52,409 nt of DNA from an uncultured Porphyromonadaceae bacterium (GTDB lineage Bacteria; Bacteroidota; Bacteroidia; Bacteroidales; Muribaculaceae). The notes beneath the pieces were generated by a model. The model was not told the origin of the DNA. It saw nothing but the letters and a program-made list of their open reading frames with translations, and made no database searches. The position numbers were made by a program, and so were the translations under genes. Of the stretch, positions 4,896 through 39,177 are shown piece by piece (position 1 is the first letter of the stretch; each line of letters begins with the position of its first letter). The stretch is from positions 1 through 52,409 of the forward strand of contig CAMJZI010000007.1 in the NCBI GenBank assembly GCA_946410185.1, written 5' to 3'.

Positions 4896-7271
4896 CTATA
4901 AGATTCTGGCCACTTGGTAGAACAAGAATGAGATGAGCCACGCCACACCAGTGGTATAGAATATCTCGAAAATCATCCACTTGGTGCCCGCTTCACGCTT
5001 GATGGCCGCCAGTGCCGCTATGCATGGGAAGTATAGCAGGATGAAGAGCATGAACGAATAGGCAACTATGGGATCAAACACGTGCTCGCCATCGGGCTTG
5101 GTGGCGGTTTGCAGTTTTTCCTTGAGCGATGCCGACTCCTCGGTCGCATCGGCCTCGCCGGTATAGAGCACTCCCATCGTCGAGACAACAATCTCCTTGG
5201 CCGCTGCGCCAGTGAGGACGCTTACTCCCATCTGCCAGTTGAACCCCAAGGGTGCAACAACTGGCTCAATGGCCTTGCCCATTTGTCCCATGAAGGAGTT
5301 CTCGATCTGTTCCTGCGGAGTCTGCCCATCGTGGCGGGGAAAATATCCCAGTGCCCATACGATGATGGACGCGGCAAGGATGATGGTGGCCATCTTCTGC
5401 AAGTACTGTTTGCCCTTGCTCCACATGTGGATGGTGGCGTTGCGGGCGGTGGGTTTGCGATAGGGTGGCAACTCCATCACAAACTGGGACTTGTCATGCT
5501 TCAATAAGGTCTTGCTCATGACGATGGCAGTGAGTGCGGCGACCAGAATGCCCACTAAATAGATACTCATCAGAATGAGACCCTGGTTGGCCGTGAAGAA
5601 GGCTGCTACCAGCAACAGATAGGCCGGAAGCCTGGCAGAGCAAGACATGAACGGAACGGTTAGAATGGTCACCAGTCGGTCACGGCGGTTCTCAAGTGTG
5701 CGTGTTGCCATGATTGCAGGAACACCACATCCAAAGCCGATGAGGTAGGGGATAAAAGATTTGCCGTGCAAGCCCACGCGGTGCATAATGCGGTCCACGA
5801 TGAATGCGGCACGCGCCATATAGCCGCTGTCCTCAAGCAGTGAGATAAAGAAGAACAGTATCAGAATCTGCGGCAGGAACACAAGTACGCCTCCCACGCC
5901 GCCGATGATGCCATCGACAATCAAGTCGCGCAAGATGCCGTCGGGCATGGCATTGCCAATCCATTCGCCCAGCCATCCGATACCGTTTTCAATCCACTCC
6001 TGCGGATAGGCGCCTAGCGTGAAAGTCGCTTCAAACATCAGCCACATCAATATCAGCAGTATGGGCAACGCCAGCCAGCGGTTGGTCAGCAGGCGGTCAA
6101 GCGAGTAGCCGGGCTTGGTCTCGCCAGTGCTGCGTTCGGGATTAGGCACAAGGACCTCGGCTAGGGCGCCCCTTACAAACCCGTATTTCAAGTCGGTGAT
6201 GATGCTCACAATGTCGTCATTGAAATCGCGCTCGATGTGCTGGCGCATGTCGGCAGCCGCCTGTTTGATCTTTTCGGCATCATCTTTGCCATTGAGCAAG
6301 TCGATGGCATGCTGATCGTTCTCGATGATTTTGAGCACGGTGTACCTGTCCAAATCTGGGCACATTTCGCCCAGATTTTTCAGGCAGTCTTCGATTAGGG
6401 TGCCATAGTTCACGTTGTGGTGCAAGGTGTCTTGTTCGCTGTCGTCGATGGCATCCATGACGGCTTGCAGCACCTCATGCACGCCATTGCCGTTATAGGC
6501 TGTCATGGGAATCATGCGTGCTCCCAGCAGCCTGCTCATCATCTCAATATCCAGGTGGTCGCCGCTCTTCTCGAGCTCGTCCCACATATTCAGAGCGATG
6601 ACCATCGGGATGTTCATGTCCATCAACTGGGTGGTCAGGTACAGGTTGCGCTCCAGATTGCCGGCGTCAACAATGTTGAGGATGGCATCAGGGCGATTAT
6701 CGCGGATGTAGGTGCGGACATACATTTCCTCTGGCGAGTATTCGGTCAACGAATAGGTCCCGGGCAGGTCCACTAGTTGCACTTTGTGTCCCCCGATATT
6801 GAACCACCCTTCCTTGCTGTCCACGGTCACTCCGCCGTAGTTGCCCACCTTTTCGCGAGCGCCGGTGGCATTGTTAAAGAGAGAGGTCTTTCCGCAATTG
6901 GGGTTGCCCACGAGCACCACGCGCAGCACGTCGTCGGCCATCGGGTCGGCGGCAGCTACCTCGGTTTCAACGATGCCGTTGTAAGCATCTTCCAGGTCGC
7001 AGAACTCGGCATCCTTGTCAGTCACTTCGATCTGGGCGGCTTCGCTGTGGCGCAGTGAAATGTGCGACCCCAGGATCATATATTCCACCGGATCCTTGAG
7101 CGGAGCGTTTTTCAGAACTGTGACCTGAGCGCTGCGCACAAACCCCATCTCCAGTAAACGCTGCCTGAAGGCGCCGTCGCCCATAACCCGGACGACCTGC
7201 ACTGTCTTGCCCACCGGCTCGTCATCGAGCAGGCGGGTCTTAATACGATTATTGTTTTGGTCTGTTGCCAT
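4896..7271 (-). CDS. feoB: Ferrous iron transporter, FeoA-FeoB fusion
   Basis: This 791-residue protein imports Fe2+ across the inner membrane. An N-terminal FeoA-like SH3 domain (about residues 15-85) is fused to the FeoB G domain, which shows G1 GNPNCGKTS at 123-131, G3 DLPGTYSL at 168-175 and G4 NMWDE at 228-232. A linker and the polytopic membrane domain follow from about residue 400, including Gate motifs such as GCGVPAIMATRT. Start 7271 is chosen because an upstream in-frame ATG at 7301 lies inside the predicted -7 box (7299-7306), so it cannot be translated from that transcript. The FeoA-FeoB fusion is common in Bacteroidetes. The Cys-rich partner gene follows directly. Confidence 0.96.
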   Translation of the reverse strand: MATDQNNNRIKTRLLDDEPVGKTVQVVRVMGDGAFRQRLLEMGFVRSAQVTVLKNAPLKDPVEYMILGSHISLRHSEAAQIEVTDKDAEFCDLEDAYNGIVETEVAAADPMADDVLRVVLVGNPNCGKTSLFNNATGAREKVGNYGGVTVDSKEGWFNIGGHKVQLVDLPGTYSLTEYSPEEMYVRTYIRDNRPDAILNIVDAGNLERNLYLTTQLMDMNIPMVIALNMWDELEKSGDHLDIEMMSRLLGARMIPMTAYNGNGVHEVLQAVMDAIDDSEQDTLHHNVNYGTLIEDCLKNLGEMCPDLDRYTVLKIIENDQHAIDLLNGKDDAEKIKQAAADMRQHIERDFNDDIVSIITDLKYGFVRGALAEVLVPNPERSTGETKPGYSLDRLLTNRWLALPILLILMWLMFEATFTLGAYPQEWIENGIGWLGEWIGNAMPDGILRDLIVDGIIGGVGGVLVFLPQILILFFFISLLEDSGYMARAAFIVDRIMHRVGLHGKSFIPYLIGFGCGVPAIMATRTLENRRDRLVTILTVPFMSCSARLPAYLLLVAAFFTANQGLILMSIYLVGILVAALTAIVMSKTLLKHDKSQFVMELPPYRKPTARNATIHMWSKGKQYLQKMATIILAASIIVWALGYFPRHDGQTPQEQIENSFMGQMGKAIEPVVAPLGFNWQMGVSVLTGAAAKEIVVSTMGVLYTGEADATEESASLKEKLQTATKPDGEHVFDPIVAYSFMLFILLYFPCIAALAAIKREAGTKWMIFEIFYTTGVAWLISFLFYQVARIL

Positions 7272-7298
7272 TTCGTGTCTGTATTTAATTCCAATCTG

Positions 7299-7329
7299 CA
7301 AAATTACTATATCATTTCAAGCATAACAA
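7299..7329 (-). promoter_or_regulatory. feoB promoter (TTG-N20-TAATTTTG)
   Basis: On the minus strand a -33 TTG (7329-7327) is separated by exactly 20 bases from TAATTTTG (7306-7299). This is a full sigma-ABfr match, placing the transcript start near 7292 and a leader of about 20 bases before ATG 7271. Confidence 0.7.
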
Positions 7330-7589
7330 TCACCTAAAAATGGTGTTTGTGTCCTTTTCTTATCCCCATTAATGGGGGTGTTGGCTGTCTTTAATGGGTC
7401 AGAATAGTTAAGGTATGTTAAAATAAGTCGTTTGATTAAACTTTTCTCGTTTTTGTAAGTCAATATATCGACTTCGATGAAGAAAGAACGCTTCAAACGA
7501 AATAAAACTGACTTTTTCTTAATAATAAAACACTTCAACAACCTTGTGTCAAACTGCTGACGAAGCATCACGAGACACGAAACATATAG
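7330..7589. other. AT-rich intergenic region without a supported gene
   Basis: This AT-rich stretch lies between the feoB promoter and the orphan terminator at 7590-7636. It contains an 84-residue minus-strand open frame with no family resemblance, which I do not support. A plus-strand small RNA ending at the terminator is possible, but I found no TAnnTTTG box for it. Confidence 0.3.
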
Positions 7590-22499: not shown

Positions 22500-23912
22500 A
22501 TGAAACAAAAGATTTTGATAATCGCCGCGTTGCTTGTATCGATGGTGGCTGTGGCCCAATCGTTTGACAACTATTTTGATGGCCGCACGTTGCGCCTCGA
22601 TTACATTTTTGCCGGCAACAATCATGACCAGCAGATATTTTTTGAACAGGCTTATTGCACACCGCAATGGGCTGGGCGCAAGAGCCGGCTGGCCGATGTC
22701 CCGCTCAAGGGCAACGGGCAGATCCAGGTCAAGGACCACGCCACAGGACGACTGCTGTTTGTCCACACATTCTCGACATTGTTTCAAGAGTGGCAGGCTA
22801 CCGAAGAAGCGACCAAGGTCAATAAGGCTTTTGCTGCCAGCTACAATGTGCCCATGCCCAAGCAGCCCGTTGACATCACGGTCTCGCTCATTGATTTTCA
22901 TGGCAAGGTTGTCGGTTCGATGACCCATACTGTCGATCCCGCCGATATCTTGATCCGTCACATTGGTGAAAATGGTATTCCTCATCACTACGTCTGGAAA
23001 GGCAAGACCTTGCCTGCTGATGGAAAAAATGCTGATCAACCTGGCAAGCGTGATTACACTCCCACCGAGGGACCCCTTGATGGCGTACCCGATATCACCC
23101 AGTGCATCGATCTGGCCATTGTTGCCGAGGGTTACACCCGTGCCCAGATGGGCAAGTTCTATCACGATTGCCAGCGTGTGGTCGATGCCCTGTTTGCCCA
23201 CGAGCCTTTCACTTCGCTCAAAGATCGTTTCAACGTTGTTGCCGTGGCTGCCGAGTCGTTGACCAGCGGTCCCAGCGTGCCTCATTTGGGCCGCTGGAGC
23301 TCGACACCAGTGGGCACCCACTACGACACCTTCTACAGCGACCGCTACCTGATGACGCAGGATATCCACCGCTTGTATGACGTGCTGTCAGGAGTTCCCT
23401 TCGAGCACATCATTGTGCTGGTCAACAGCGATACCTATGGTGGCGGCGGTATTTATAATCAGATTACGGTCTCCACCAGTGACCATCCCACATTCCATCA
23501 GGTGCTAGTACATGAATTCGGCCACGCCTACGCAGGTCTGGGCGACGAGTACTTCTATGATGACGGCTACGAGTCGATGTATCCTGCCGATACCGAGCCG
23601 TGGGAGCCCAATCTGACGACACTCGTCGATTTCCAAAGCAAGTGGGCCGATATGTTGCCCAAGGGTACTCCGATTCCCACGTCTCCCGACCCCAAAGTGC
23701 CCAACTACCGTAAAATCACCAATGAGAAGGAACAGCGTCTGCTGGATGCAGCAACCCAACGCGTCGGTGTGTTCGAGGGTGGGGGATACCAGAGCAAGGG
23801 GGTTTACCGCCCCGCACAGGAATGTCGCATGAAAATCAACGAGGTGGCCAACTTCTGCCCCGTGTGCTCCCGTGCCATCCAGCGCATCACCGACTTCTAT
23901 ACGGCTCACTGA
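22500..23912 (+). CDS. Secreted M64-family metallopeptidase (IgA peptidase-like)
   Basis: This 470-residue secreted zinc protease has a signal peptide (residues 1-20, ending VAVAQ). The zinc motif HEFGHAYAGLGDEY at 338-351 (HExxH plus GDEY) is the signature of peptidase family M64, first described as an IgA protease. An N-terminal domain of about 190 residues precedes the catalytic domain, which begins near IDLAIVAEGYT. ATG 22500 gives the cleaner signal peptide; an in-frame ATG at 22491 adds three residues. The natural substrate in this organism is unknown. Its neighbours are the dockerin/FISUMP protein and gpmI. Confidence 0.88.
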   Translation: MKQKILIIAALLVSMVAVAQSFDNYFDGRTLRLDYIFAGNNHDQQIFFEQAYCTPQWAGRKSRLADVPLKGNGQIQVKDHATGRLLFVHTFSTLFQEWQATEEATKVNKAFAASYNVPMPKQPVDITVSLIDFHGKVVGSMTHTVDPADILIRHIGENGIPHHYVWKGKTLPADGKNADQPGKRDYTPTEGPLDGVPDITQCIDLAIVAEGYTRAQMGKFYHDCQRVVDALFAHEPFTSLKDRFNVVAVAAESLTSGPSVPHLGRWSSTPVGTHYDTFYSDRYLMTQDIHRLYDVLSGVPFEHIIVLVNSDTYGGGGIYNQITVSTSDHPTFHQVLVHEFGHAYAGLGDEYFYDDGYESMYPADTEPWEPNLTTLVDFQSKWADMLPKGTPIPTSPDPKVPNYRKITNEKEQRLLDAATQRVGVFEGGGYQSKGVYRPAQECRMKINEVANFCPVCSRAIQRITDFYTAH

Positions 23913-25821: not shown

Positions 25822-25870
25822 ATAGCCTATTATTGTGTGTTTTACCTCAAAATTCCCAAAAATAGGCTAT
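25822..25870. repeat. Inverted repeat, operator-like, before the receptor operon
   Basis: ATAGCCTATT (25822-25831) and AATAGGCTAT (25861-25870) are perfect 10-base inverted arms with a 29-base spacer. The right arm occupies the expected -33 position of the promoter whose -7 box is at 25893-25900. Confidence 0.6.
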
Positions 25871-25892
25871 CGTGAGATCTTTTTGATCGCAG

Positions 25893-25900
25893 TAATTTTG
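25893..25900 (+). promoter_or_regulatory. Receptor operon -7 box TAATTTTG
   Basis: TAATTTTG lies 35 bases before ATG 25936. The -33 position lacks TTG and is instead covered by the right arm of the inverted repeat, suggesting a regulated promoter. Confidence 0.55.
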
Positions 25901-25935: not shown

Positions 25936-28677
25936 ATGAGAATTAATCATATTGTTGTTTTGATGGCGATGTCGCTCACCGCCCTTTGTGCTGCTGGTTA
26001 CACCTTGCGAGGCTCGGTAAGCGATGGTCAAACGCATGAGAAAATACCTTTTGCAACGGTAAAGGTAACCCCTGGTAATCATGTCACACAGACCGACGCA
26101 TCAGGCAATTTCTATCTTACCATCGATGGCGGTAACTACACCGTTACCGTGTCTTTTGTGGGGTATAAGTCCTCGCAATCGTCAGTTGTCCTTAATAGCG
26201 ACCGCACGCTTGATTTGAATATAGAGGAGGACAGCCATGTACTCGGCGATGTCGTGGTGACTGCCAAGGAATCGACGGGCATTACCAGCACCTCGCGCAT
26301 CGACCGCGACGCGATGGCACACCTGCAACCCACAAGTTTTACCGATTTAATGGAATTGCTGCCTGGCAACATCTCGCACAATCCCAACATGGGGGCTGTC
26401 AATTCCATTAAATTGCGAGAGACTGGCAGCAGCAATTCAGATTATGACATCTCGTCGCTGGGAACGTTGTTCATGGTGGATGGAGCGCCCATCAATGGCG
26501 ATGCCAATATGCAGAATGTGCCTGACGGCAGCGAGGCGGCCCGTGATATGACGGGCAAGGGTGTTGACATGCGAACACTGAGCACCGACAATATCGAGAG
26601 TGTGGAGGTCATCCGTGGCATCCCATCGGCCGAGTATGGCAACCTCACCAGCGGCATGGTCAACATCAAGCGCATCAGGCGTGCCACACCGTTCACTGCT
26701 CGTTTCAAGGCCGATGAATACAGCAAACTGGTGTCATTGGGAAAAGGCTTCTACATGGGTAACTCGGGACACATTGTTAATGTTGACGGCGGTTACTTGG
26801 ATTCCAAAATTGACCCTCGCAATCATCTAGAGAATTACAAGCGTCTGAATCTCTCGACACGCTTGAATCTGCGTTTTGAACACCCGGCGATTACAACTTC
26901 GTTGATTACGGGCGTGGACTATACTGGCTCGTTTGATAATGCCAAGGAAGATCCCGACTTGAGCTACCGTAAGGTGGATGAGTATCGGTCACGCTACAAC
27001 CGCTGGAACTATACCAGCGATTTGACTTTATCATTTAACCGTATGTCATGGCTCAGAAGCATAAATGTCAATACCTCGGTGAGTTATCAGCACGACCGCC
27101 TTGAACGTAATAAGCAGGTGGCTCCGCAACGCGCCTCGGTGGCTCCCACCACGATGGAAGAGGGAGAGCACGACGGCCAGTACCTGCTCAGCGAGTATGT
27201 TGCCAATTATGTGAGTGACGGTAAACCCCTCAATATATATGTCAAGGCCAAAGCCGAGGGCGCATGGAACTTATCGCGTGTCAAGAATACTTACAAGGCT
27301 GGTATGGAATGGACCTTGTCCAAGAATTACGGCGATGGTCAGGTCTATGACCTCACACGTCCGCTTGGTGCGTCATGGACGACCCGTCCGCGTGCCTATA
27401 AGGACATTCCTGCATTGAATGTGCTCTCGTTTTATCTCGAAGACAACTTTTCTGTCCCCATCGGCTCGACTTCACTCGAGGCGCAATTGGGCGTGCGATC
27501 CATCCAACTGCCAGGTCTTGACAGCCGTTACTATTTGAGCAACCACCCATATCTGGATCCACGCATGAACGTCAAGTGGAGCCTGCCTGCCATTGTCGTC
27601 GGGGGGCAGGATCTGCATTCCTACCTGGCTGGCGGTTTTGGCCTGACCACCAAGATGCCTACCATTAATCATCTGTTCCCCCAGGTGAATTATCATGACT
27701 ATATCCAGCTCAACTACTATGATGTGAACGATCCAGTGAACCGCAGCCGCATCAGCCTGCGCACCTATATCGACGATGTGACCAACTATGACCTGAAGCC
27801 CGCCCGCAACCACAAGTGGGAAATCCGCTTCGGTGCCAATATTGGACGCAATAGTCTATCAGTCACCTATTTTAATGAGAAAATGCACTCGGGCTATCGT
27901 TATAGCGCCTACTATAAACCTTATAGCTATCGCTGGTATGACGTGGATGCTATTGATCCGTCAGCGCTTACTTCGGCCCCTGTGCTTCAAGACCTGCCTT
28001 TTGAAGACCGCACGGTGTTGGGTGGCTATAGCAAGCAGACCAATGGCAGCAGGTTGAACAAGGAAGGTATCGAGTGGGTCCTCACCACAGCCCGCTGGCA
28101 ACCCATTGCCACCGCGCTTACTGTGACGGGTGCATGGTTCCGCTCGACATATACCAACTCCCAGCAGATGTATAGTACCGTGAGCGATGTGGTGGCGGGT
28201 GTCATCGTTAGCAACCACTATGTGGGGCTGTATGATTGGAACGACGGCCGTGTCAACGAGCAGTTGAATACCAATTTCATGTTTGATACCCAGGTCAAGC
28301 GCTGGGGGCTGGTCTTCACAACCAACGTGCAGTGCATGTGGTTTGAGAGCACGCGCCGCATGTCGCAGGATGGCATGCCCGTGGCCTATATCGACGTGGC
28401 CGATGGCCAGTTGCATCCTTATACCGCAGACCTGCTTTCTCACCCGCTGTTGCAATTCCTCACTAAATATTACAACAGTGATGTCTATAAACGGCAGACG
28501 ACCCCCACGGCAGTTTACATCAACCTGAAAGCGACAAAAGAAATAGGTAAGCACCTGAAGGTCGCAGTCTTTGTGAATCGTATCCTCGATTACCTGCCTG
28601 ATTATAAGTCTAATGGATTGACGATTCGCCGCAGTAGCGACCCTTACTTTGGAATGGAACTTAATTTTTCACTATAA
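25936..28677 (+). CDS. TonB-dependent outer-membrane receptor
   Basis: This 913-residue receptor has a signal peptide (residues 1-20), a carboxypeptidase-regulatory-like beta-sandwich (about 22-105, with YTLRGSVSDGQTHEKIPFATV), a plug domain (about 110-245, including VVVTAKES and SVEVIRGIPSAEYGN), and a long barrel ending in Phe-Ser-Leu. It takes up an unknown substrate across the outer membrane using TonB energy. It is the first gene of a four-gene operon with a lipoprotein, another barrel and an M16 protease. A SusD-like partner is absent, unlike glycan-uptake systems, which argues for a peptide or metal ligand. An inverted repeat sits over its promoter. Confidence 0.93.
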   Translation: MRINHIVVLMAMSLTALCAAGYTLRGSVSDGQTHEKIPFATVKVTPGNHVTQTDASGNFYLTIDGGNYTVTVSFVGYKSSQSSVVLNSDRTLDLNIEEDSHVLGDVVVTAKESTGITSTSRIDRDAMAHLQPTSFTDLMELLPGNISHNPNMGAVNSIKLRETGSSNSDYDISSLGTLFMVDGAPINGDANMQNVPDGSEAARDMTGKGVDMRTLSTDNIESVEVIRGIPSAEYGNLTSGMVNIKRIRRATPFTARFKADEYSKLVSLGKGFYMGNSGHIVNVDGGYLDSKIDPRNHLENYKRLNLSTRLNLRFEHPAITTSLITGVDYTGSFDNAKEDPDLSYRKVDEYRSRYNRWNYTSDLTLSFNRMSWLRSINVNTSVSYQHDRLERNKQVAPQRASVAPTTMEEGEHDGQYLLSEYVANYVSDGKPLNIYVKAKAEGAWNLSRVKNTYKAGMEWTLSKNYGDGQVYDLTRPLGASWTTRPRAYKDIPALNVLSFYLEDNFSVPIGSTSLEAQLGVRSIQLPGLDSRYYLSNHPYLDPRMNVKWSLPAIVVGGQDLHSYLAGGFGLTTKMPTINHLFPQVNYHDYIQLNYYDVNDPVNRSRISLRTYIDDVTNYDLKPARNHKWEIRFGANIGRNSLSVTYFNEKMHSGYRYSAYYKPYSYRWYDVDAIDPSALTSAPVLQDLPFEDRTVLGGYSKQTNGSRLNKEGIEWVLTTARWQPIATALTVTGAWFRSTYTNSQQMYSTVSDVVAGVIVSNHYVGLYDWNDGRVNEQLNTNFMFDTQVKRWGLVFTTNVQCMWFESTRRMSQDGMPVAYIDVADGQLHPYTADLLSHPLLQFLTKYYNSDVYKRQTTPTAVYINLKATKEIGKHLKVAVFVNRILDYLPDYKSNGLTIRRSSDPYFGMELNFSL

Positions 28678-28698
28678 GAAATAAAATACTATTAAACA

Positions 28699-29961
28699 AT
28701 GAAGAAGATATTGATGATTTCGGCCTTAATGTTCGTGATGGTCGCCTGTGACGACAATCTCGATGAAGGCTTGACTTACTGCACGCCTGATTTTACCGTG
28801 CAGTTACCTGTGGACCTGCAGGGCGCCGCTATCCAGTCACAAACACTCGAAGTGAAAGACGTTTCCAGTGGCCGTAAGGTCGTTTACAGTGACCTCAATG
28901 GTGTGGCCCTCAAGACCGGCCTGTATGACATGGGCTATGAAGCCGATGTGACAATGGGCGGAACCACTCGCCATGTGACAGCCTATGTCCAATCGGTGCA
29001 GATTTCATCAACGACCCAATCGGTTGTGCTACCTGCATTTGAAAGCCTTGTGAACGATGATTTCATTATCGAGGAAATATTTTTCACGGGCACCTTGCAG
29101 ACCTCTGGTAACCAGTATTATGGCGATGATTATATCAAGATTTATAACAATACCGACCATGTGCTCTATGCCGACGGCTTGTCAATTGTCGAGTCCAAAT
29201 TCCTCACGACCGCGAAATATGACTATGATCCCGATATCATGAACGAGGCCATGACTGTGCAAGCCATTTATACAATCCCTGGTAACGGTACTGAGCATCC
29301 CGTCGAGCCTGGTCAGAGCCTCATCATCGCCGACACGGGCATTGACCACAAGGTGGCTAACCCCAACAGTTTTGACCTGAGTGCGGCCGATTGGGAGTGG
29401 TATGACATATCGATCAGTGCCAGTCACATGGACATTGATAGCCCCACAGTACCAAATCTCGACAAGTGGTATTGTTACACGCAGTCTTTCTTTGTACTCC
29501 ACAACCGCGGTTTCAAGGCCTGGGCACTGGCGCGCATCCCGGTGGACAAGGAAGAATATTTGACCCATTACAACTACCAGTACAGTTATGTCATCATGAA
29601 CGCCTCTGGCACCTTCCCGATGACACAATCGGCCTATAAGATACCCAACACCTGGATTGTGGATGCCGTTAATTGCGGTGTGGAATCAGAGTATGTGTGG
29701 AATGTGACCGCACCTTCTCTTGATCGAGGCTGGTCTTATTGCGGAACCATCGACCATGACAAGACTCGCTACTTTCACAGTGTGCGTCGCAAGATGCTTT
29801 ATCTGAAGGACGGTCATCCCCATTTCAAGGATACCAATAATTCCACAGATGATTTTAACCCCTATTGCATTCCAAGCTTGATTGAGGAGCAGGGTACAGT
29901 CATTGACATGGATGGCCATGTGGCGACGCAACTCACATGGGATGGCGTGACATCTAAGTAG
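28699..29961 (+). CDS. DUF4876-like lipoprotein
   Basis: This 420-residue lipoprotein has the lipobox VMVAC with Cys17. The residues after it are acidic (DDN), similar to signals that send Bacteroidetes lipoproteins to the cell surface. The N-terminal half (about 30-120, with YTCTPDF-like and VTAYVQSVQI beta strands) is a sandwich-like domain, and the C-terminal half includes FFTGTLQTSGNQYYGDDYIKI and DNTNSTDDFNPY-type segments, matching DUF4876. The role is unknown in the literature I know. It lies 21 bases after the receptor gene and 8 bases before the next gene. A role as surface ligand-binding partner of the receptor is an inference. Confidence 0.75.
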   Translation: MKKILMISALMFVMVACDDNLDEGLTYCTPDFTVQLPVDLQGAAIQSQTLEVKDVSSGRKVVYSDLNGVALKTGLYDMGYEADVTMGGTTRHVTAYVQSVQISSTTQSVVLPAFESLVNDDFIIEEIFFTGTLQTSGNQYYGDDYIKIYNNTDHVLYADGLSIVESKFLTTAKYDYDPDIMNEAMTVQAIYTIPGNGTEHPVEPGQSLIIADTGIDHKVANPNSFDLSAADWEWYDISISASHMDIDSPTVPNLDKWYCYTQSFFVLHNRGFKAWALARIPVDKEEYLTHYNYQYSYVIMNASGTFPMTQSAYKIPNTWIVDAVNCGVESEYVWNVTAPSLDRGWSYCGTIDHDKTRYFHSVRRKMLYLKDGHPHFKDTNNSTDDFNPYCIPSLIEEQGTVIDMDGHVATQLTWDGVTSK

Positions 29962-29969
29962 ACTAGGCC

Positions 29970-31481
29970 ATGAAGCGATTGGGCATATTATTACTGATAA
30001 GTCTTGCTGGTTGTGCAGCAGCGATGGCACAGGAGGCCCCGCGCTGGATGTCGCTCGACGATACCTTGCGCGTTGAACATCTGCTCTCGCTGGCTTGGCA
30101 AAATCCGGTCATCAAGCAGTTCTCACAGGCCAGTGGCGAGAGCCATGCCGGTGGCGGCTTTGTCATCAGTGACGAGGATAGCGGTAGCCCTCTTGATATC
30201 CAGCGTGGTGACTATTCACGTATGTGGCATCTGGCTGCCGACACCCATATCAAGCATAATGCCTCCACCTTGTGGGGATTTGCTCGTTATGAGAATGGCT
30301 TTACCGATGGCATCACGTGGAATGAGACGAGTGATATCGACATCATTTACCCGGTTGTTCTGGCCGATAGTGTGCGCGGGGCCAGCGTAAAAACCGAGCG
30401 TTATAGCTTTGGCGGTGGTTATGCACAAGGCAATGGCCGCTTCTACTGGGGGGCCTATATCGATTATACCGCTGGTCTTCACTATCGTCGGGTAGATCCC
30501 CGTCCTCGTAACATTACCGCCTGCCTGAATCTATCGGCTGGTGTCGGCATGAGAGCCGTCAATTCACATATTCTGGCCGTGTCGCTCAACTTCAGGAAAT
30601 ACAAGCAGACCAATAACGTGGCCTTCTATAGCGAATTAGGCCATGACAAGATTTTCCATTTGACTGGCTTGACCAACGATTACGGCCGCTTTGCTGGTAC
30701 TGGCGAGGCTTCTTATTACAACGGCTATCGTTGGGGCGTGACTGTCAATCTGCAACCAGAGCGGGCCCGGGGACTGTCGATGTGCGTGAATGCTTCAAGG
30801 TTCTCCTTTGACAACATTCTCACGGCACTCAATAAATTGCCGCTGGCCCATATTACCCATAACAGTATTGATGGCGAACTGGGCTGGTTGCAGCGCAACT
30901 GGGGCGTTCGGGCCGTTGTCGGTGCGTCAAGGCGTGTTGTGACCGAGAATGTCTTTGGTGATGCTGCAGCAATGGTTTACCCTCAGATTGGGAGTAATGA
31001 CATGTATCACGAGAACCGTTTCAATGCTGGCCTCGATGCCATGTGGTCAAAGTTGTGGTCGGCATCATTGATGACCGTCTTGCGTCCCTTTGCCAGTTAT
31101 CATCATGTAAATGAGATATATGCCGATCCTCGCGGCAGACGGCTGCTCAACACGGTTGAGTGGGGCGCTCGCCTGGGTTCGCAATGGCACTTTGGACGTT
31201 TCATGCCCGGATTACAACTTGGAGTGATGCTTGATCACCCCATTGATAGCCAGTGGTTTGTGGCGGGTGTGAAAGACGAGTTAAAGGGCCTCTTGAGGGC
31301 AAAACAGGCTGGCTATGACTATCTCAGTCATTTCCACAGCCATGGACAAGCAGTGTTCTCGTTGCAAGTGGCTGTGAATAAACGGCAGGCCATCCGTGCC
31401 GAGTGCGGTGCCACTGTGGGGCGGTATCATGGTGGGCACAAGACTATTGATGCCTTTACATCGATTAACTATGTGTTTTGA
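29970..31481 (+). CDS. DUF6850-like outer-membrane beta-barrel protein
   Basis: This 503-residue protein has a signal peptide (LLLISLAGCAAAMAQ; the Cys could make it a lipoprotein, but cleavage at AMA-Q is also plausible). The mature part starts APRWMSLDDTLRVEHLLSLAWQNP and then shows regular amphipathic beta strands with many aromatic residues to the end, which finishes in Phe (TSINYVF). This matches the DUF6850 family of Bacteroidetes barrels that occur beside DUF4876 lipoproteins. The function is unknown. Its tight spacing to both neighbours (8 and 29 bases) marks it as part of the operon. Confidence 0.75.
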   Translation: MKRLGILLLISLAGCAAAMAQEAPRWMSLDDTLRVEHLLSLAWQNPVIKQFSQASGESHAGGGFVISDEDSGSPLDIQRGDYSRMWHLAADTHIKHNASTLWGFARYENGFTDGITWNETSDIDIIYPVVLADSVRGASVKTERYSFGGGYAQGNGRFYWGAYIDYTAGLHYRRVDPRPRNITACLNLSAGVGMRAVNSHILAVSLNFRKYKQTNNVAFYSELGHDKIFHLTGLTNDYGRFAGTGEASYYNGYRWGVTVNLQPERARGLSMCVNASRFSFDNILTALNKLPLAHITHNSIDGELGWLQRNWGVRAVVGASRRVVTENVFGDAAAMVYPQIGSNDMYHENRFNAGLDAMWSKLWSASLMTVLRPFASYHHVNEIYADPRGRRLLNTVEWGARLGSQWHFGRFMPGLQLGVMLDHPIDSQWFVAGVKDELKGLLRAKQAGYDYLSHFHSHGQAVFSLQVAVNKRQAIRAECGATVGRYHGGHKTIDAFTSINYVF

Positions 31482-31510
31482 CAATTAACCAGAATAAAGA
31501 AATATAACTG

Positions 31511-34333
31511 ATGAGAAGACTATTTTTGACATTTGTGGCCTTTGTTGTATTGGCAGCCACGGCAACCGACGTGATTCCGATGGACCCGACTGTGCGCACA
31601 GGCACACTGGACAACGGCCTCACCTACTATGTGAAGCATAACAATTATCCCGAACACCATGCCGACTTTTTTATCGCCCAGTGCGTGGGCTCGATTCAAG
31701 AGGAGGAAAATCAGCGTGGTCTGGCCCACTTCTTGGAGCACATGTGTTTTAACGGAACCAAACATTTTCCTGGCAATTCCCTCATCGACTACCTGGAGAA
31801 GAATGGAGTTAAATTCGGAGCCAATCTCAATGCCTACACCAGTACCGATGAGACTGTTTATAACATTAGCAATGTGCCCACAGGGCGACAGGGCTTGCTG
31901 GATTCATGCATGCTCATTTTGAGTGACTGGGGCCACGATCTCTTGCTCAAGGGTAAAGATATTGACGAGGAACGAGGCGTTATTGAGGGAGAGTACCGCC
32001 ACCGCAGCGGTGCTAACTACCGCTTGATTGAGAAATCTTCACCCGATGTTTATCCTGGCTGTCTTTACGGGTCCCGCATGCCCATCGGCTTGATGAGCGT
32101 TGTCAAGAATTTCAAGCACAAGGAACTGCGTGACTACTACAAGAAATGGTATCACCCCAGTAATCAGTGTGTGATTGTTGTGGGAGACATCGACCCAGAC
32201 TGGGCAGTCGCCAGAATTCATGAACTTTTCGGAAAAGTGAAGAATCCCAAGAAGGCAGCTCCTGTGGCCAAGGTAATGGTTCCTGACAATGAACAGATTA
32301 TTGCTACCGTTCAGACCGATCCCGAGCAGACCACTACTAGCGTGCGCCTGTTGTTCAAGCACGACCGGTTGTCTGAGGATTTGATGCCGACAACTGCTTT
32401 TTTGCGCGATGATTACCTCAAGCATGTGGTTGCAGCCATGATGACATCACGCTTCAACGACCTCAACCAGCAGGCTGATGCCCCCTTTACCCACGTGGGT
32501 GTGACCGACCGCAATTTCATCATTTCCAAGACTTGCAAGGCTTTCCAACTCATTGCAATGACTAAGGACGGCCAGGCCGATCGGTCTATCCAGTGGCTAG
32601 CCCGCGAGGTGAACCGTGCAGCACGTTTTGGTTTTACCGATAGTGAGCTGCGTCGTGCGCGGCTCAATTATGTGTCGGCTCTCGACAAACTGTATCGTGA
32701 GCGTGATCGCTATAGCAATACCACTCTGGCCAGGGACTTTGTCAGAACATATCTGGATGGCGAGCCCATTGCCACCATCGAGGTCTATCGTGACTTGATG
32801 ATGAAGGAAATCGACGACATTACCCTTGACGAGGTAAACCGCTATTTTAATACCTTGGTCAGCCCTACCGATCGTAACGTGGTGTTAATGACTTATGCTC
32901 CTGAGAAGGCTGGAACTGCCATTCCCACCAAGCAGTCCTTAATTGACAGTTTCCATGCCGGTCGGGCGATGGATGTGCATGCTTGGGTGGACAGCGTGGC
33001 TGATTCTCGCTTGCTCACTATTGAACCCGAGGCCGGCGAGGTTGTGAAGACCGAGCCCTTGCCTGTGTTTGATGCCGAGTTGTGGACACTCTCCAATGGC
33101 ATGAAGGCGATGGTCAAACACACGGCTCTCAAACCCGGCGAGGTGGTTATCGCAGGCGCTGGCCCTGGTGGATTGTCACAGAACTACCGTGGTGCCGAAG
33201 ACGGTCCTTCGTTCAAAGTGTTTGGCAACGTGGCTGCCACAATGGGTTTCGGTCAGTTCTCGAGCAATGACTTGAAAAAAGCTCTGGCCGGCAAGGAGGT
33301 CTCGATGCGCACATTCGTAAGCAAGACCGAGGAGGGCTTCCAGGGTACGGCTACCCGTGGCGACCTTGAGACGGCATTCCAGTTACTGTATCTCAAACTG
33401 ACTTCGCCACAGAAGGACGAACCTGCCTTTAACGCTTACTTGGAGAATACGCGTTCACGCATGGCCAACCAGATGGCCGACCCCAAGTTTGAGTTTGCCG
33501 ACTCGTTGTTCGCCAACGTATTCAACCACCATCCACTGGGCGGAGAGCGATTGGGCAGGGACGAGGTGAACAAGGTGGACCTGAATAGGGTGCTTGAGGT
33601 CTACCGGGATCGGTTTGCTGAATTGAGCGACATCACTCTGTATATAGTCGGTGACTTTGATACCGATTCGCTCAAGACGCTGTTGGGCCGTTATGTGGCT
33701 TCGCTGCCAGCTTCGGTCGATGGACGCTATGAAAGTCCACGTGATATCGGTTATCGCTTGTATGATCACCACATCGACACCCGCTGGACTCGCAAGATGG
33801 AGAATCCGCAGGACAAGGTCTATTTCTTCTGGACTGCACAGTGCGACTATAATCTGCGCAATGCTCTGTTGGCCAAGGTGACAGGGCAGCTTTTCACGGC
33901 TATATTCCGCCAGCAACTGCGCGAAGACCGTGGATGGACTTATCATGTGGACACCCATTGCAGTGTTGTGCCTGACCAGAATGGCAATGATGCCCCGGTC
34001 ATCTTCATGCCGCTCAACGTCACGGTAACTGCTGGAAAGGCCGATGAGACACGCCAAATCATCAGTGAGGATATCAATCAGGTCGCTCTCAACGGGGTTA
34101 CACAAGAACAGCTCGACAAAGTCGTGAAATACCTGTGCAAGGTCAATGCCGAGGATCAGCAGGACAACACCTACTGGATGTCGATGATGAAGTACTACGA
34201 CAAGTTCGGCATCGATTTCGACACCGATTATGTAAAGACCCTGCAGGGCTTTACAACAGAAGACATCAGGCACTTTGTGGCTACCTATATCGCTCCGGCA
34301 AAGGTCCTCAACCTGACCATGACCCCTGAATGA
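31511..34333 (+). CDS. Secreted M16-family zinc metalloprotease
   Basis: This 940-residue pitrilysin/insulinase-like protease has an N-terminal signal peptide (about residues 1-19). The inverted zinc motif HFLEH lies at 73-77, with the third ligand Glu in the ERGVIEGE segment (154-161). The C-terminal half has the inactive M16 lobe, including LREDRGWTYHV, which contributes the substrate-binding Arg/Tyr. Two-lobed M16 enzymes form a clamshell that digests short peptides or small unfolded proteins. Secretion means it probably acts in the periplasm. Its place at the end of a TonB-receptor operon resembles the ferredoxin-uptake pair FusA/FusC of Pectobacterium; this analogy is inference. Confidence 0.92.
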   Translation: MRRLFLTFVAFVVLAATATDVIPMDPTVRTGTLDNGLTYYVKHNNYPEHHADFFIAQCVGSIQEEENQRGLAHFLEHMCFNGTKHFPGNSLIDYLEKNGVKFGANLNAYTSTDETVYNISNVPTGRQGLLDSCMLILSDWGHDLLLKGKDIDEERGVIEGEYRHRSGANYRLIEKSSPDVYPGCLYGSRMPIGLMSVVKNFKHKELRDYYKKWYHPSNQCVIVVGDIDPDWAVARIHELFGKVKNPKKAAPVAKVMVPDNEQIIATVQTDPEQTTTSVRLLFKHDRLSEDLMPTTAFLRDDYLKHVVAAMMTSRFNDLNQQADAPFTHVGVTDRNFIISKTCKAFQLIAMTKDGQADRSIQWLAREVNRAARFGFTDSELRRARLNYVSALDKLYRERDRYSNTTLARDFVRTYLDGEPIATIEVYRDLMMKEIDDITLDEVNRYFNTLVSPTDRNVVLMTYAPEKAGTAIPTKQSLIDSFHAGRAMDVHAWVDSVADSRLLTIEPEAGEVVKTEPLPVFDAELWTLSNGMKAMVKHTALKPGEVVIAGAGPGGLSQNYRGAEDGPSFKVFGNVAATMGFGQFSSNDLKKALAGKEVSMRTFVSKTEEGFQGTATRGDLETAFQLLYLKLTSPQKDEPAFNAYLENTRSRMANQMADPKFEFADSLFANVFNHHPLGGERLGRDEVNKVDLNRVLEVYRDRFAELSDITLYIVGDFDTDSLKTLLGRYVASLPASVDGRYESPRDIGYRLYDHHIDTRWTRKMENPQDKVYFFWTAQCDYNLRNALLAKVTGQLFTAIFRQQLREDRGWTYHVDTHCSVVPDQNGNDAPVIFMPLNVTVTAGKADETRQIISEDINQVALNGVTQEQLDKVVKYLCKVNAEDQQDNTYWMSMMKYYDKFGIDFDTDYVKTLQGFTTEDIRHFVATYIAPAKVLNLTMTPE

Positions 34334-34469: not shown

Positions 34470-36740
34470 TTACTTTGCTGTGGAGAAAGAGTAGGGGACA
34501 TCGTTCTTGCCGGTGCCGCGCTTGGTGTTGGGGGTATCACTCATGACAAAGCGGATGTCGGCACCCTGCAACATTTGTTCATGATCCAGATAGTTGCGGT
34601 TGTATGACTTGCCATCGATGGTCATTGATTGGATATAACAACCGTTTCCATCACAGGTCAAGCTCACCTGTTTGCCGTTTTCAAGATGAAGCGTCATCTT
34701 GTCAAAGTACGGTGAACCCATCACATACTGGTTGCTGCCAGGGCACACGGGATAGAATCCCATTGCCGAGAAGACGTACCAGGCCGATGTCTGGCCGTTA
34801 TCCTCATCACCGCAATAACCGTCGGGAGCGGCGCTGTAGAGGCGGTCCATCACCTGATGGATCCAGTACTGGGCTTTCCACGGCTGACCGCCGTAGTTGT
34901 AGAGGTAGATCATGTGCTGGATGGGTTGGTTGCCGTGGGCATAGTTACCCATGTTCATGATCTGCATCTCACGAATCTCGTGGATGGTGAATCCATAATA
35001 GCTGTCATCAAACAGGGGTGGGATGGCAAACACCGAGTCCAGCATCTGACAGAACACTGTCTTGCTTCCCATCAGGTTGATGAGGCCTTGAGGGTCATGG
35101 AATACACTCCATGTGTAGTGCAGGCTATTGCCCTCGGTAAACGCTCCGCCCCATTGCAGTGGGCTGAAGGGGGATTGGAAGGACCCGTTCTTGAGCCGGC
35201 CGCGCATTAGTTTGCTCTCAGCGTCAAACACATTGCGGTAATTCATTGCCCGCTTGGCAAAAATCTCGATTTCTTCCTTTGGTTTGCCCAGGGCTTTGCC
35301 CAGTTGGTAGATGCACCAGTCGTCATAGGCATACTCCAGTGTCCTGGCTACGCTCTCGTTGATACCGGCATCACAGGGAATATAGCCAAGCTGGTTGTAA
35401 TAGTCATAGCCCAAACGGCCCGTTGATTTCACCTCAGGGTGCACGGCTGTGGTGCCATGAACGACAGCTTTCCACAATTGGTCGATGTCATATCCGCGAA
35501 GGCCCTTCATGTAGCCATCGGCCACCACCGAGGCGCTGTTATTTCCCACCATGCAGTTGCGGTGTCCTGGACTGGCCCATTCTGGCAGAAAACCGCTCTC
35601 GAGCCAAGTGTTCACTAGTCCCTCTTGCATCTGCTTGCCCATCGAGGGGTACATCAGGTTGACTAGCGGGAACAAGGCACGGAAGGTGTCCCAGAAGCCC
35701 GTGTCGGTGAACATTCGCCCAGGCAACACCTGGCCATTGAAAGGGCTATAGTGAACAGGCTGCCCCTTTTCGTCGATTTCATAGAGACAGCGGGGAAATA
35801 GCACCGAGCGGTACAGGCAAGAGTAGAAGGTGCGCAGGTGGTCGATATTATCATCTTGAACTTCGATGCGCCCCAGTATGTCGTTCCAGCGCTGGCGGCC
35901 TTTCTGCTTGATGGCCTCGAGGTTGTCATGACCCAGTTCGGCCAAGTTGCGCTCGGCTTGCTCAAGGCTGATGAATGACGAAGCCACACGGGCGTTGACC
36001 TGATTTACGTTGCGGGTGTCAAAGGTCACGATAGCTCCTGCATGGTTGCAAAGGCTGTGCCTCTCTCCCGTGAGCAGAATACTGTCTTTCACGGCGCAAA
36101 AGGCGGTGAACGGCTTGTCAAATTCAATGACAAAGTAATTCTTGAAGTTCTCGGGAACGCCGCTGCTATTGCGCGTAGTGTAACCTACAATGCGTCTGGC
36201 ATCAGGCAGAATGGTGACCTCTGAGCCCTTGTCGAAGGCGTCAATCACCACGTTGGCCTGATCTGTCTTGGGGAAGCTGAATCGTAGGATGGCGGCTCGT
36301 TCGGTAGGTGCGATCTCGGTTGTCACGTCATGGTCGGCGAGATAAACCTGGTAGTAATAGGGTGCGGCCACTTCGGCTTTGTGCGAGAACCAGCTGGCGC
36401 GTTTGTTCTCGTCAAATACAGGCTCGCCAACGGTGGGCATCAACGAGAACTGGCCGTAGTCATTGATCCACGGGCTGGGCTGGTGCGTCTGTTTGAAGCC
36501 GCGTATCTTTTTCGCGCCATAGGTGTATTGCCAGCCGTCGCCCATCTTACCCGTCTGCGGCACCCAGAAGTTCATGCCCCAGGGCATGGCGATTGCAGGG
36601 TAGGTGTTACCCGTTGATAACTCGAAACTCGACTCGGTACCAACCAGTGTGCTGACATAATCCACGGGATCAGTTTGACTGGCAAAAGCTTGCGCGCTCA
36701 GCCCTAAAACCAAGCATAAAGTAATGATTATTCTTTTCAT
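34470..36740 (-). CDS. GH92 family alpha-mannosidase
   Basis: This 756-residue glycoside hydrolase of family GH92 has a signal peptide (residues 1-20). GH92 enzymes are Ca2+-dependent exo-alpha-mannosidases that trim mannose from N-glycans and mannans. The N-terminal beta-sandwich starts VDYVSTLVGTESSFELSTGNTYPAIAMPWGM (about 27-57). The catalytic domain has MFTDTGFWDTFRALFPLVNLM (about 338-358), the catalytic-Glu region FTEGNSLHYTWSVFHD (about 541-556), and GDEDNGQTSAWYVFSAMG (about 645-662). The VFHD segment differs from the usual VPHD. Specificity cannot be decided. A second GH92 gene lies 266 bases upstream on the same strand. Confidence 0.92.
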   Translation of the reverse strand: MKRIIITLCLVLGLSAQAFASQTDPVDYVSTLVGTESSFELSTGNTYPAIAMPWGMNFWVPQTGKMGDGWQYTYGAKKIRGFKQTHQPSPWINDYGQFSLMPTVGEPVFDENKRASWFSHKAEVAAPYYYQVYLADHDVTTEIAPTERAAILRFSFPKTDQANVVIDAFDKGSEVTILPDARRIVGYTTRNSSGVPENFKNYFVIEFDKPFTAFCAVKDSILLTGERHSLCNHAGAIVTFDTRNVNQVNARVASSFISLEQAERNLAELGHDNLEAIKQKGRQRWNDILGRIEVQDDNIDHLRTFYSCLYRSVLFPRCLYEIDEKGQPVHYSPFNGQVLPGRMFTDTGFWDTFRALFPLVNLMYPSMGKQMQEGLVNTWLESGFLPEWASPGHRNCMVGNNSASVVADGYMKGLRGYDIDQLWKAVVHGTTAVHPEVKSTGRLGYDYYNQLGYIPCDAGINESVARTLEYAYDDWCIYQLGKALGKPKEEIEIFAKRAMNYRNVFDAESKLMRGRLKNGSFQSPFSPLQWGGAFTEGNSLHYTWSVFHDPQGLINLMGSKTVFCQMLDSVFAIPPLFDDSYYGFTIHEIREMQIMNMGNYAHGNQPIQHMIYLYNYGGQPWKAQYWIHQVMDRLYSAAPDGYCGDEDNGQTSAWYVFSAMGFYPVCPGSNQYVMGSPYFDKMTLHLENGKQVSLTCDGNGCYIQSMTIDGKSYNRNYLDHEQMLQGADIRFVMSDTPNTKRGTGKNDVPYSFSTAK

Positions 36741-36914
36741 GATCTCATTGAGATAATTATTAGTTTACCCAAAATATACTTGTAGTAAAAGATTCAGAAA
36801 CAGTCTTTCTCTGTTCATTAAAACTCAGCAAATCTACAAAAAAAAACATATCAATCACATTTTTTATTTAAAAAACGTCGCAAACTCCATTTTTTAAAAA
36901 CTATTTGCGAATAT

Positions 36915-36963
36915 AAACTGGCGCCTTGAGGTTGCTATGATCAATCCTCAGGGCGCCAAGTTT
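36915..36963 (-). terminator. Strong hairpin between the two GH92 genes
   Basis: AAACTGGCGCCTTGAGG and CCTCAGGGCGCCAAGTTT form a long GC-rich stem with a 14-base loop, 42 bases past the stop of the upstream GH92 gene. Both strands have few Ts after it. It separates the two genes' transcripts. Confidence 0.65.
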
Positions 36964-37005
36964 ATGAAATCTGCTGTAGCGAAAAATAATGCTTATGTTT
37001 TTAAT

Positions 37006-39177
37006 TTATGGGCGTGCATTCTTTCCCGTTCCCCACTTGCTGGGCTTGGGACCCATGACAAGTTCAAGGATTCCGCCTGCTACGATTTCTTTGTAGTCAA
37101 TATAATTCTTGTTGTAGGTCTTGCCGTTGAGCTTTGCGCTTTGCACATAGATGTTCACGTCACTATTGTTGATGGCCTTGACGGTGAATGTTTTACCATC
37201 GCCAACATTGAGAGCGGCCTGCTTGAACAACGGCGAGCCGATGATGTATTTACCACCTGCGGGTTCTTCCTGATATAAGCCGATCGACGACAAAACATAC
37301 CATGCCGACATCTGCCCCACATCCTCGTTGCCCGACAGGCCATCAACGTCGTTACGGTACTGCTCGCGCAGCACTTGGCGGATGAGTCGTGCCGCTTTGT
37401 AGGGCTGCCCCACATAGTTGTACATGTACAGGATGTGGTGACTCGGCTCGTTGCCATGGGCATATTGTCCGATAAGGCCCGAAACATCGGGTGATGCTTC
37501 TTCGCCCAAGTCTCCCTCAATGATAAACAATGAGTCGAGTTTGGTGATGAAAGCCTTCTCGCTGCCAAAGAGTTTGACCAGACCATGCACGTCGTGGGGT
37601 ACGAGCCAGGTGTATTGCCAGGCATTACCCTCACAATAGTCGTCGTTGCGGTGCTTGGTCGATAGCGGATCAAAGTCCTTGGTGTCGCGGAAGTTACCCT
37701 TTGAGTCCTTGCCGCGCATGAAGCGGGTTTTCTTGTCGAAATAGTGCTGATAAGACCTGCTACGGTTATCAAAATAGTCAAACTTCTCCTTGTCGCCAAC
37801 CTTTTGGGCCACGCGGGCAATACACCAGTCGGCAAGGGCATATTCGAGGCCACGCGCCACTGTCTCTTTTTCTCCCTCCAGATCATAGGGGATGTAGCCA
37901 TACTTCTTCAGCAGTCCCATCGAACGCTCATCGAGCATGGCGCTGGTGGCCATTGCATTCAAGGCGGCCTTGGGGTCCACATCAAATCCTTTCAATACCA
38001 GGTCGGCCAGAACAGGGGCAGCGGGATTACCCACCATGCAGTCGGTTTCGTTGCCCATCAAGTGCCACACGGGGAGCTTGCCTTGCTGCTCAAAAATGTG
38101 CAGGAAGGTTTGGGCCATGTCGCGCTGCTTCTCGCGGTGGATAAGCGTCTGCAGCGGATGGGCAGCACGGTAGGTGTCCCATAGCGACAAGGTGGTATAG
38201 TTGGTGAAATCACCCTCGTGCACCTCGCCGTCGGCACCCCGGTATTCGCCGCACACGTCATTGAATACCGATGGGGCAATCATCGTGTGGTACAGGGCTG
38301 TGTAGAAGACCGTGCGATCGTCATTATTCTCGGTTTCGATGGCTACTTTACCCAGTTCATCGTTCCATGCCTTGTCGGCCCCTTTCATGATGGCGTAGAA
38401 ATCCCAACCGGGATTCTCGGTAGCCAGGTTGCCGATGGCATTCTCGATGCTCACGGCCGACATCCCCACCTTGACGAGCAAGGGCTCGCCATTGTTGGCA
38501 GTAGTGATGATACCTGTGGTGTCATTCTTGAGTTTCTCAAGTGTCACGTCTTGAGAGAATTCCATCACATAGAAATCCTTTTGGTTTCTTGCCCAGCCCA
38601 TCGAGTGACGGTATCCGGCAATCATGCGAGGCGACAACTGCTTCATCTTAACCTGCTTGGGTGAGTCCCAGCCGATGCCCTGGCGCAGGTCCAGTATCAG
38701 TTGGGCTGTCTTCAGCTCGGGAGCAAACGTATAGCGGTGCATACCCGTGCGCTGTGTGGCAGTAAGCTCAGCATAGACGTAGGGCTTGCCGTTTTCTCTC
38801 AAGGTGATAGCATAATAGCCGGGGCGGACGATCTCGTCGCTGTGCTTAAAAATAACCTGCTGCTGGTCACGGTTGGTGACGGGCAGCAGTGCCACATCGC
38901 CCAGGTCGCCGATTCCAGTGCCGCTCAGGTGCTGGTGGCCAAAGCCGATGAGTACCGAGTCGGTCGTGTGATACCCCGAACACCAGTCCCAGCCGCGAGT
39001 GGGCTGAGTGGGTCCCAGCTGAATATAACCAAATGGCACATTGGCTCCCAGGAACACGTGCCCATGGCCTCCTGTACCGATGAGCGGATTCACCCATTGC
39101 GTGAAGTGGTCACTGCCTGCAGCGTTGAGCGACATGAAACTCAACACAGCGGTCAGCATAAGAACTAATTTTTTCAT
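37006..39177 (-). CDS. GH92 family alpha-mannosidase
   Basis: This second GH92 enzyme has 723 residues, with a signal peptide (residues 1-20, ending LNAAG). The N terminus FTQWVNPLIGTGGHGHVFLGANVPFGYIQLGPTQ is a textbook GH92 start. LWDTYRAAHPLQTLIH (about 330), CEGNAWQYTWLVPHDVHGL (about 518) with the catalytic Glu, and GNEDVGQMSAWYVLSSIGLY (about 620) are conserved. It keeps the standard VPHD. Fairly low identity to the neighbouring enzyme suggests different linkage preferences, not a recent duplication. No SusC/SusD pair or regulator is attached, so it is not a classical polysaccharide-utilisation locus. Confidence 0.94.
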   Translation of the reverse strand: MKKLVLMLTAVLSFMSLNAAGSDHFTQWVNPLIGTGGHGHVFLGANVPFGYIQLGPTQPTRGWDWCSGYHTTDSVLIGFGHQHLSGTGIGDLGDVALLPVTNRDQQQVIFKHSDEIVRPGYYAITLRENGKPYVYAELTATQRTGMHRYTFAPELKTAQLILDLRQGIGWDSPKQVKMKQLSPRMIAGYRHSMGWARNQKDFYVMEFSQDVTLEKLKNDTTGIITTANNGEPLLVKVGMSAVSIENAIGNLATENPGWDFYAIMKGADKAWNDELGKVAIETENNDDRTVFYTALYHTMIAPSVFNDVCGEYRGADGEVHEGDFTNYTTLSLWDTYRAAHPLQTLIHREKQRDMAQTFLHIFEQQGKLPVWHLMGNETDCMVGNPAAPVLADLVLKGFDVDPKAALNAMATSAMLDERSMGLLKKYGYIPYDLEGEKETVARGLEYALADWCIARVAQKVGDKEKFDYFDNRSRSYQHYFDKKTRFMRGKDSKGNFRDTKDFDPLSTKHRNDDYCEGNAWQYTWLVPHDVHGLVKLFGSEKAFITKLDSLFIIEGDLGEEASPDVSGLIGQYAHGNEPSHHILYMYNYVGQPYKAARLIRQVLREQYRNDVDGLSGNEDVGQMSAWYVLSSIGLYQEEPAGGKYIIGSPLFKQAALNVGDGKTFTVKAINNSDVNIYVQSAKLNGKTYNKNYIDYKEIVAGGILELVMGPKPSKWGTGKNARP

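Follow-up and report, generated by a model that had tools for sequence, protein, structure and literature searches.

What does a TonB-dependent receptor gain from sharing an operon with a secreted zinc protease? The question is raised by four same-strand open reading frames (ORFs) at positions 25936-34333 (+) of a contig from an uncultured Porphyromonadaceae bacterium; this contig, at its full length of 52,409 bp, is called the window here, and its assembly comprises 1.84 Mb at 62% completeness. The ORFs encode the receptor, a DUF4876 lipoprotein, a DUF6850 outer-membrane barrel, and an M16 protease, with gaps of 21, 8, and 29 bp between them (Table 1). An initial annotation, made from the letters of the sequence, had described this run and its gaps, an acidic residue pair after the lipobox Cys of the lipoprotein, an HFLEH motif in the protease, and the lack of a SusD partner; our ORF and Pfam analyses agree on all of these, reading C17-D-D in DUF4876, placing the start of HFLEH at residue 73, and showing no SusD gene in the operon. 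Weighing the evidence below, we lean modestly toward import under iron starvation by a system that resembles Fus protein piracy in its workings but has no FusA homologue.

The core of receptor, DUF4876, and DUF6850 forms a unit that recurs across Bacteroidota. DUF4876 and DUF6850 exceeded their cut-offs in an identical set of genomes of the family (53/119), and DUF4876 was present in 26/149 genomes of the order and 29/296 of the phylum. We read 58 loci from the family survey (window included), 57 from the order and phylum surveys (in which further copies within the same genome were not included), and 78 named loci; rows L038, L147, and L190 were dropped because the script kept no DUF4876 ORF there. 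The receptor shared a same-strand run with DUF4876 in 55/58, 55/57, and 71/78 of these loci, respectively, and DUF6850 did so in 55/58, 48/57, and 70/78. Thus, the co-occurrence in other genomes on which the initial annotation depended was found.

The individual proteins fit an outer-membrane system. The receptor carries CarbopepD_reg_2 and Plug domains (Plug, 1.3e-12), and SusC/RagA models gave no match to it at E values up to 0.001; with neither a SusC/RagA signature nor SusD in the operon, a glycan system of the SusC/SusD type was rejected. DUF4876 scores 245.4 bits against a Pfam cut-off of 27.9, its AlphaFold2 model has a mean predicted local distance difference test (pLDDT) value of 91.7, and the one solved structure to which its profile aligns is 4q1z, annotated "Putative lipoprotein" (E 1.2e-43). 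A lipobox-like Cys is found in 181/193 DUF4876 proteins and is followed closely by two or more acidic residues in 125/181, as expected of surface-exported lipoproteins; judging from these residues, the DUF4876 lipoprotein is probably displayed on the cell surface. DUF6850 scores 236.4 bits (cut-off, 27) and is modeled with about 18 long strands at a pLDDT of 92.3 and a predicted template modeling score of 0.88, and a C-terminal Phe occurs in 136/168 family members. Because Foldseek aligns this model only to a broad range of outer-membrane barrels (TonB receptors, FadL, AlgE), at template modeling scores of at most 0.41, we assign DUF6850 no specific function. A second, weak DUF6850-like match lies below the cut-off in the window's own genome (G000:C16:26566-26937, E 3.5e-5). 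The literature, consulted here and below as excerpts, names no function for DUF4876 in the passages mentioning the family and yielded no mention of DUF6850; searches for BT and PG locus names, for the 9ldy structure, and for CdhR motifs brought up no role of the system.

By comparing the loci, we found that the module after the core is exchanged: M16, a gingipain-like (C25-like) peptidase, C25 with papain-like and HmuY-like proteins, ABC/DUF4857, or a di-haem enzyme. In the family survey, 16 loci hold M16, 20 ABC (ATP-binding cassette)/DUF4857, 12 a C25-like HEAT-repeat peptidase, and 4 a secreted protein of about 410 residues, while 6 count as "none", meaning without any of the modules that we modeled; 2 of these 6 lie at a contig end, and the M16 loci L031 and L040 were counted as "none" since no DUF6850 ORF was retained for them. 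The order and phylum surveys gave 3 M16, 7 C25 (one shared with M16), 13 ABC (one shared with M16), and 36 "none"; the named loci gave 41 M16, 10 ABC (one with C25), and 27 "none", the M16 count there being biased because these loci were ranked by likeness to the window. A peptidase, M16 or C25-like, is therefore found in 28/58 family loci. Four of the 12 C25 loci of the family survey carry a C1-like peptidase in addition, together with an HmuY-like protein, and this combination was seen in five loci over the surveys. Of the C25-like proteins, 24/28 retain a His-Gly/Ala-Cys dyad (it is missing in the distant L136, L137, L138, and L142), and Pfam C25 matches at 3.3e-6 in L061 and 0.0037 in L055. 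In two "none" loci, L117 and L131, a di-haem CCP/MauG-type gene directly follows DUF6850, with MauG and MbnH model scores below the cut-offs.

In a receptor tree that keeps 148/175 rows, the module switches 13 times over the rows to which one was assigned; for the M16 label, 12 changes are required (versus 40.9 in shuffles), and well-supported branches force no fewer than 11 of them. Two further neighbours were seen at related loci. A secreted family of about 600 to 800 residues, some with tails like those of the type IX secretion system (T9SS), stands divergent to or inside the operons at L032, L035, L089, L146, L148, L150, L154, L159, L160, L163, L168, L169, L173, and L178-L180; as a fifth partner it was rejected, being absent from the window and represented in the window's own genome by only a 54-residue tail match. 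At the distant loci L136 and L143 lie M16, a YCF48/BNR propeller (the one in L136 has a T9SS tail), and Fe-S proteins resembling NosR/NapH or HMA/MerTP.

The M16 protein of the window contains Peptidase_M16 (8e-26) and two Peptidase_M16_C stretches. Its nearest solved chain is 9ldy (6e-188); phmmer aligns residues 22-927 to PqqL 6ofs at 5.2e-64, and 6b03, a "Putative zinc protease" that we take to be FusC, matches at 1.3e-34. HxxEH is kept in 60/60 full-length, same-strand linked M16 proteins. The initial annotation had placed the enzyme outside the cytosol; in its sequence the start of the window protein is signal-peptide-like and 54/60 linked M16 proteins pass a crude signal-peptide test, so we infer a periplasmic site. 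PqqL-like M16 proteins (match at 1e-20) are common (114/119 genomes), and the 15 best matches to the window M16 are all in DUF4876 loci. In an M16 tree with 56 linked and 15 unlinked rows (71 in total), the linkage label changes 2 times versus 13.8 in shuffles, and by its sequence the window M16 is separate from an unlinked paralogue elsewhere in the genome. The linked M16 proteins of L141 and L143 belong to a different subfamily, which suggests a second recruitment. Of 64 cases, M16 is immediately preceded by DUF6850 in 38 and by DUF4876 in 16, and a gap of 60 bp or less separates the two genes in 48/54; two of the 16 (L040, L164) have the same 1,544-bp gap, a stretch for which no DUF6850 ORF was retained. 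Prevotellaceae-like loci are arranged as receptor, a gene of about 127 codons, DUF6850, DUF4876, and M16. Since this order differs from that of the window, the M16 linkage has outlived a rearrangement.

How is the operon controlled? Upstream of the receptor, relatives carry AATACC-N8-GGTATT followed 21 bp on by TAnnTTTG, and that this palindrome is common to many of these promoters is new here. The pattern GGTATT-N15..24-TAnnTTTG occurs at 28/60 M16, 11/35 ABC, 2/18 C25, 0/4 OB, and 6/59 other loci, with shuffled means of at most 0.08. We built an operator matrix from 39 distinct sites, the window being excluded, and applied it at fixed spacing to all 36 TAnnTTTG sites of the window. The four-gene operon ranked first, feoAB second, and the third site far below (direct matrix, 9.65, 6.03, and -3.51; symmetric matrix, 10.42, 9.47, and -1.13), and 0/200 shuffles reached the second-best, feoAB score. 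Accordingly, only the four-gene operon and feoAB carry the operator in the window, in degenerate form. Over the loci, the matrix finds 40/60 M16, 20/35 ABC, 6/18 C25, 0/4 OB, and 17/59 other; because it was trained on promoters of the same operons, the locus counts, including that of 36/105 loci, are partly circular.

Across 10 named genomes, with one mismatch allowed, the palindrome occurs 45 times versus 4 for a reversed control, and we examined the genes downstream of 38 of these 45 sites. Eighteen distinct sites have the 21-bp spacing; they precede, among others, four TonB receptors (one a DUF4876 locus), one OMP_b-brl_3 barrel, flavodoxin, TetR, a hemerythrin-LuxR regulator, OprB, a C1 peptidase, and two leucine-rich-repeat proteins of surface type (L294 and L311, in Bacteroides fragilis and Prevotella disiens). 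FeoB or FeoAB follows a palindrome site in L303 and L315, with no -7 box in range. The DUF4876 locus of B. fragilis has two tandem operator sites, and in the same species a siderophore-type receptor lies behind another site; the B. fragilis site at L272 was rejected as iron-linked, as its neighbours are not iron-like. Hemerythrin-LuxR-like proteins are found in 20/21 relatives, at full length in two, and of these two complete genes one carries the operator, at 22 bp. The palindrome resembles the 7-2-7 site of LuxR/NarL regulators, and we infer that the hemerythrin-LuxR protein reads it.

Published expression data on relatives point in the same direction. In RNA-seq, low iron raised PG1019-22 by 20.8- to 214.5-fold, BT1933-39, a locus that includes a HEAT-repeat protein, by 3.5- to 7.4-fold, and BT3625-33, with ABC, PepSY, and DUF4857 genes, by up to 128-fold (PMC10434189). 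In Prevotella intermedia, PIOMA14_I_1877-79 (receptor, peptidase), which may be an M16-type locus, rose 9.4- to 72.4-fold. A DUF4876 gene was strongly lower in hemin excess (PMC10470040), and PG1019 and PG1020 were raised together with CdhR in a mutant of a hemerythrin protein (PMC10101095). Because the operator is common to feoAB and relatives are induced by iron limitation, the operon is probably under iron-starvation control; this iron link adds to what the initial annotation had read from the locus.

Putting these findings together, the four genes would be transcribed as one operon from an iron-starvation promoter. The TonB-dependent receptor would be the energised outer-membrane gate, import through it being supposed on account of its receptor family, the surface-displayed DUF4876 lipoprotein would capture the ligand, and the DUF6850 barrel would be an obligate outer-membrane partner. 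The cargo would be a protein or peptide, with iron or haem as the prize: the periplasmic M16 would cut the imported ligand and free iron (or haem) for further uptake, for example as Fe2+ by FeoAB, which has the same operator. Import followed by proteolysis is supported indirectly, since unrelated peptidases (M16, C25-like, C1-like) occupy the slot after the same core.

Several observations weigh against this reading. In the family survey, ABC/DUF4857 without a peptidase occupies 20/58 loci and no modeled module is found in 6/58; since ABC/DUF4857 is about as frequent as a peptidase, proteolysis is not the core function, and loci with no linked peptidase indicate that the core works without a linked protease. 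The import and periplasmic degradation proposed in the initial annotation thus gains from the different peptidases sharing one slot and loses from the 20 loci that hold ABC/DUF4857 instead. Under the direct matrix, the top-scoring shuffle came to 6.00, versus 6.03 for the feoAB site. A strict palindrome search at up to 3 mismatches found none in the window or its genome, so that its degenerate copies are detected by the trained matrix alone. Behind five of the 18 sites with 21-bp spacing lie genes that match no Pfam family, and behind one (L296, B. fragilis) lies enolase, which is hard to fit to iron. The genome of the window, at 62% completeness, yielded no hemerythrin-LuxR regulator. The published induction is that of relatives with other modules, and our search found no expression data for an M16-type locus. 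Finally, FusB-like (TonB paralogue) and FusD-like (ABC transporter) genes are not in the four-gene run, and the window receptor, unlike that of Fus, has no FusA match among solved chains: phmmer gave only N-terminal matches, to 9gbc and 9hfj, in a single-sequence search that may miss distant kin. FusA was presumably present among the chains searched.

What else could the operon do? The iron operator and iron-induced relatives would also suit a siderophore-like route of the published xusABC type that takes in haem or a small chelate of iron, in which M16 would only trim a peptide part of the ligand or clean up peptides. The replacement of proteases by ABC/DUF4857/PepSY-type modules and the HmuY-like partner of the C1 subtype also speak for such uptake, but dedicated full-length proteases of several clans stand repeatedly behind the core and exceed the needs of a chelate; we regard it as unlikely, though to be taken seriously. 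If the metal were copper, the receptor, surface protein, and maturation module would be akin to methanobactin/CorA-type or Nos-type handling. The di-haem enzyme of MauG/MbnH likeness that follows DUF6850 in L117 and L131 and the NosR/NapH-like and HMA/MerTP-like proteins near L143 and L136 hint at this, whereas the operator is common to feoAB and also precedes flavodoxin, the published induction is by iron limitation, and copper hints are absent from the window, which leaves copper very improbable.

Nor does the system need a metal at all if oligopeptides or proteins are taken up for carbon and nitrogen. Secreted peptidases in the slot and the nearby M64 peptidase gene would suit metal-independent peptide nutrition, while the iron-type promoter and the non-protease modules of many relatives do not, and we give it little credence. 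It could also be asked whether the M16 gene is a co-transcribed chance neighbour, functionally unrelated to the core, given that M16 genes are so common and that the window's genome holds several. This is the least probable explanation and hardly credible: M16 stays beside the core despite changed gene order, the linked clade is separate from unlinked paralogues in the M16 tree, and a different subfamily was recruited in L141 and L143.

Fus-like systems (the ferredoxin uptake system FusA-FusB-FusC-FusD of Pectobacterium and YddB-PqqL of Escherichia coli) are known from Proteobacteria and are defined via FusA homologues (PMC6793856); they are the model for import with digestion by an M16 enzyme (PMC6793856, PMC6071955). 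Both systems have a TonB-dependent receptor adjoining a secreted PqqL/FusC-like M16, and iron-dependent expression is reported for Fus (PMC6793856) where here the iron operator is known from sequence. The operon described here adds the constant DUF4876 and DUF6850, with the protease as the exchangeable part, and ABC modules are found in relatives of other subtypes, not in the four-gene run. As no FusA match was obtained, we do not file the operon as a Fus member. PG1019-22, BT1933-39, and BT3625-33 share the combination of DUF4876 and receptor and the induction by iron limitation, and differ in having HEAT-repeat or ABC/PepSY/DUF4857 partners, by the gene names published, in place of M16 (PMC10434189). 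Hmu (HmuY-HmuR) likewise pairs a surface lipoprotein with a TonB receptor under low-iron expression (PMC10434189), but DUF4876 is a family distinct from HmuY, and an HmuY-like protein is found here only in the C1 subtype. SusC/SusD systems also combine a CarboxypepD_reg-domain receptor and a surface lipoprotein in one operon, whereas this operon has neither a SusC/RagA model match nor a SusD gene.

Table 1 Features of the four-gene operon and of feoAB in the window
Feature	Position	Strand	Basis or remark
TonB-dependent receptor, 913 aa	25936..28677	+	CarbopepD_reg_2 and plug; not SusC/RagA type
DUF4876 lipoprotein, 420 aa	28699..29961	+	PF16215 5.6e-73; lipobox Cys17 then Asp-Asp
DUF6850 outer-membrane barrel, 503 aa	29970..31481	+	PF21012 9.5e-70; C-terminal Phe
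Secreted two-lobed M16 zinc protease, PqqL-like, 940 aa	31511..34333	+	Pfam, phmmer
HFLEH zinc motif codons, M16 residues 73-77	31727..31741	+	Sequence
Degenerate operator copy AATACC-N8-GGTATT, overlapping the -33 region	25852..25871	+	Trained matrix
-7 box TAATTTTG, 21 bp after the operator	25893..25900	+	Spacing as in relatives
Second operator copy, before feoAB; spacing of 21 bp to TAATTTTG at 7306-7299	7328..7347	-	
feoAB fusion, ferrous iron transporter	4896..7301	-	FeoB_N 4.6e-60, FeoA 5.6e-17

The real start of feoAB is likely the in-frame ATG at 7271, as read from the sequence. A terminator scan gave several terminator-like matches inside the operon (12 in the region versus a shuffle mean of 6.6, standard deviation 3.1), a result that neither supports nor excludes a single transcript. 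Two adjacent GH92 genes (alpha-mannosidase family; 34470-39177, -) are convergent with the operon, and an M64 gene (IgA peptidase family; 22491-23912, +) lies upstream of a phosphoglycerate mutase gene; lying on the opposite strand or behind a 378-bp gap, and not being recurrent at related loci, the GH92 pair and the M64/iPGM genes were rejected as parts of the operon. The window also encodes a T9SS plug protein domain, PF17116 (16004-17326, +), by which the source organism may possess type IX secretion, in keeping with the T9SS-tailed neighbours of related loci. A viral or mobile origin was discarded, as a scan of viral contigs yielded no relative.

Only in a few Proteobacteria has the uptake of whole proteins or peptides as an iron source been established. 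If our reading is true, gut and rumen Bacteroidota have independently put together a version of their own, in which the processing enzyme can be exchanged, and DUF4876 and DUF6850 would be assigned to a pathway. We put forward more tentatively that such "piracy" machines may be Bacteroidota-wide, with a constant core, a lineage-matched plug-in module, a phylum-level operator read by the hemerythrin-LuxR protein, and an iron- or haem-protein or peptide as cargo. The Bacteroidota iron regulon has been described as sparsely known (PMC10434189), and the operator offers a concrete handle on it.

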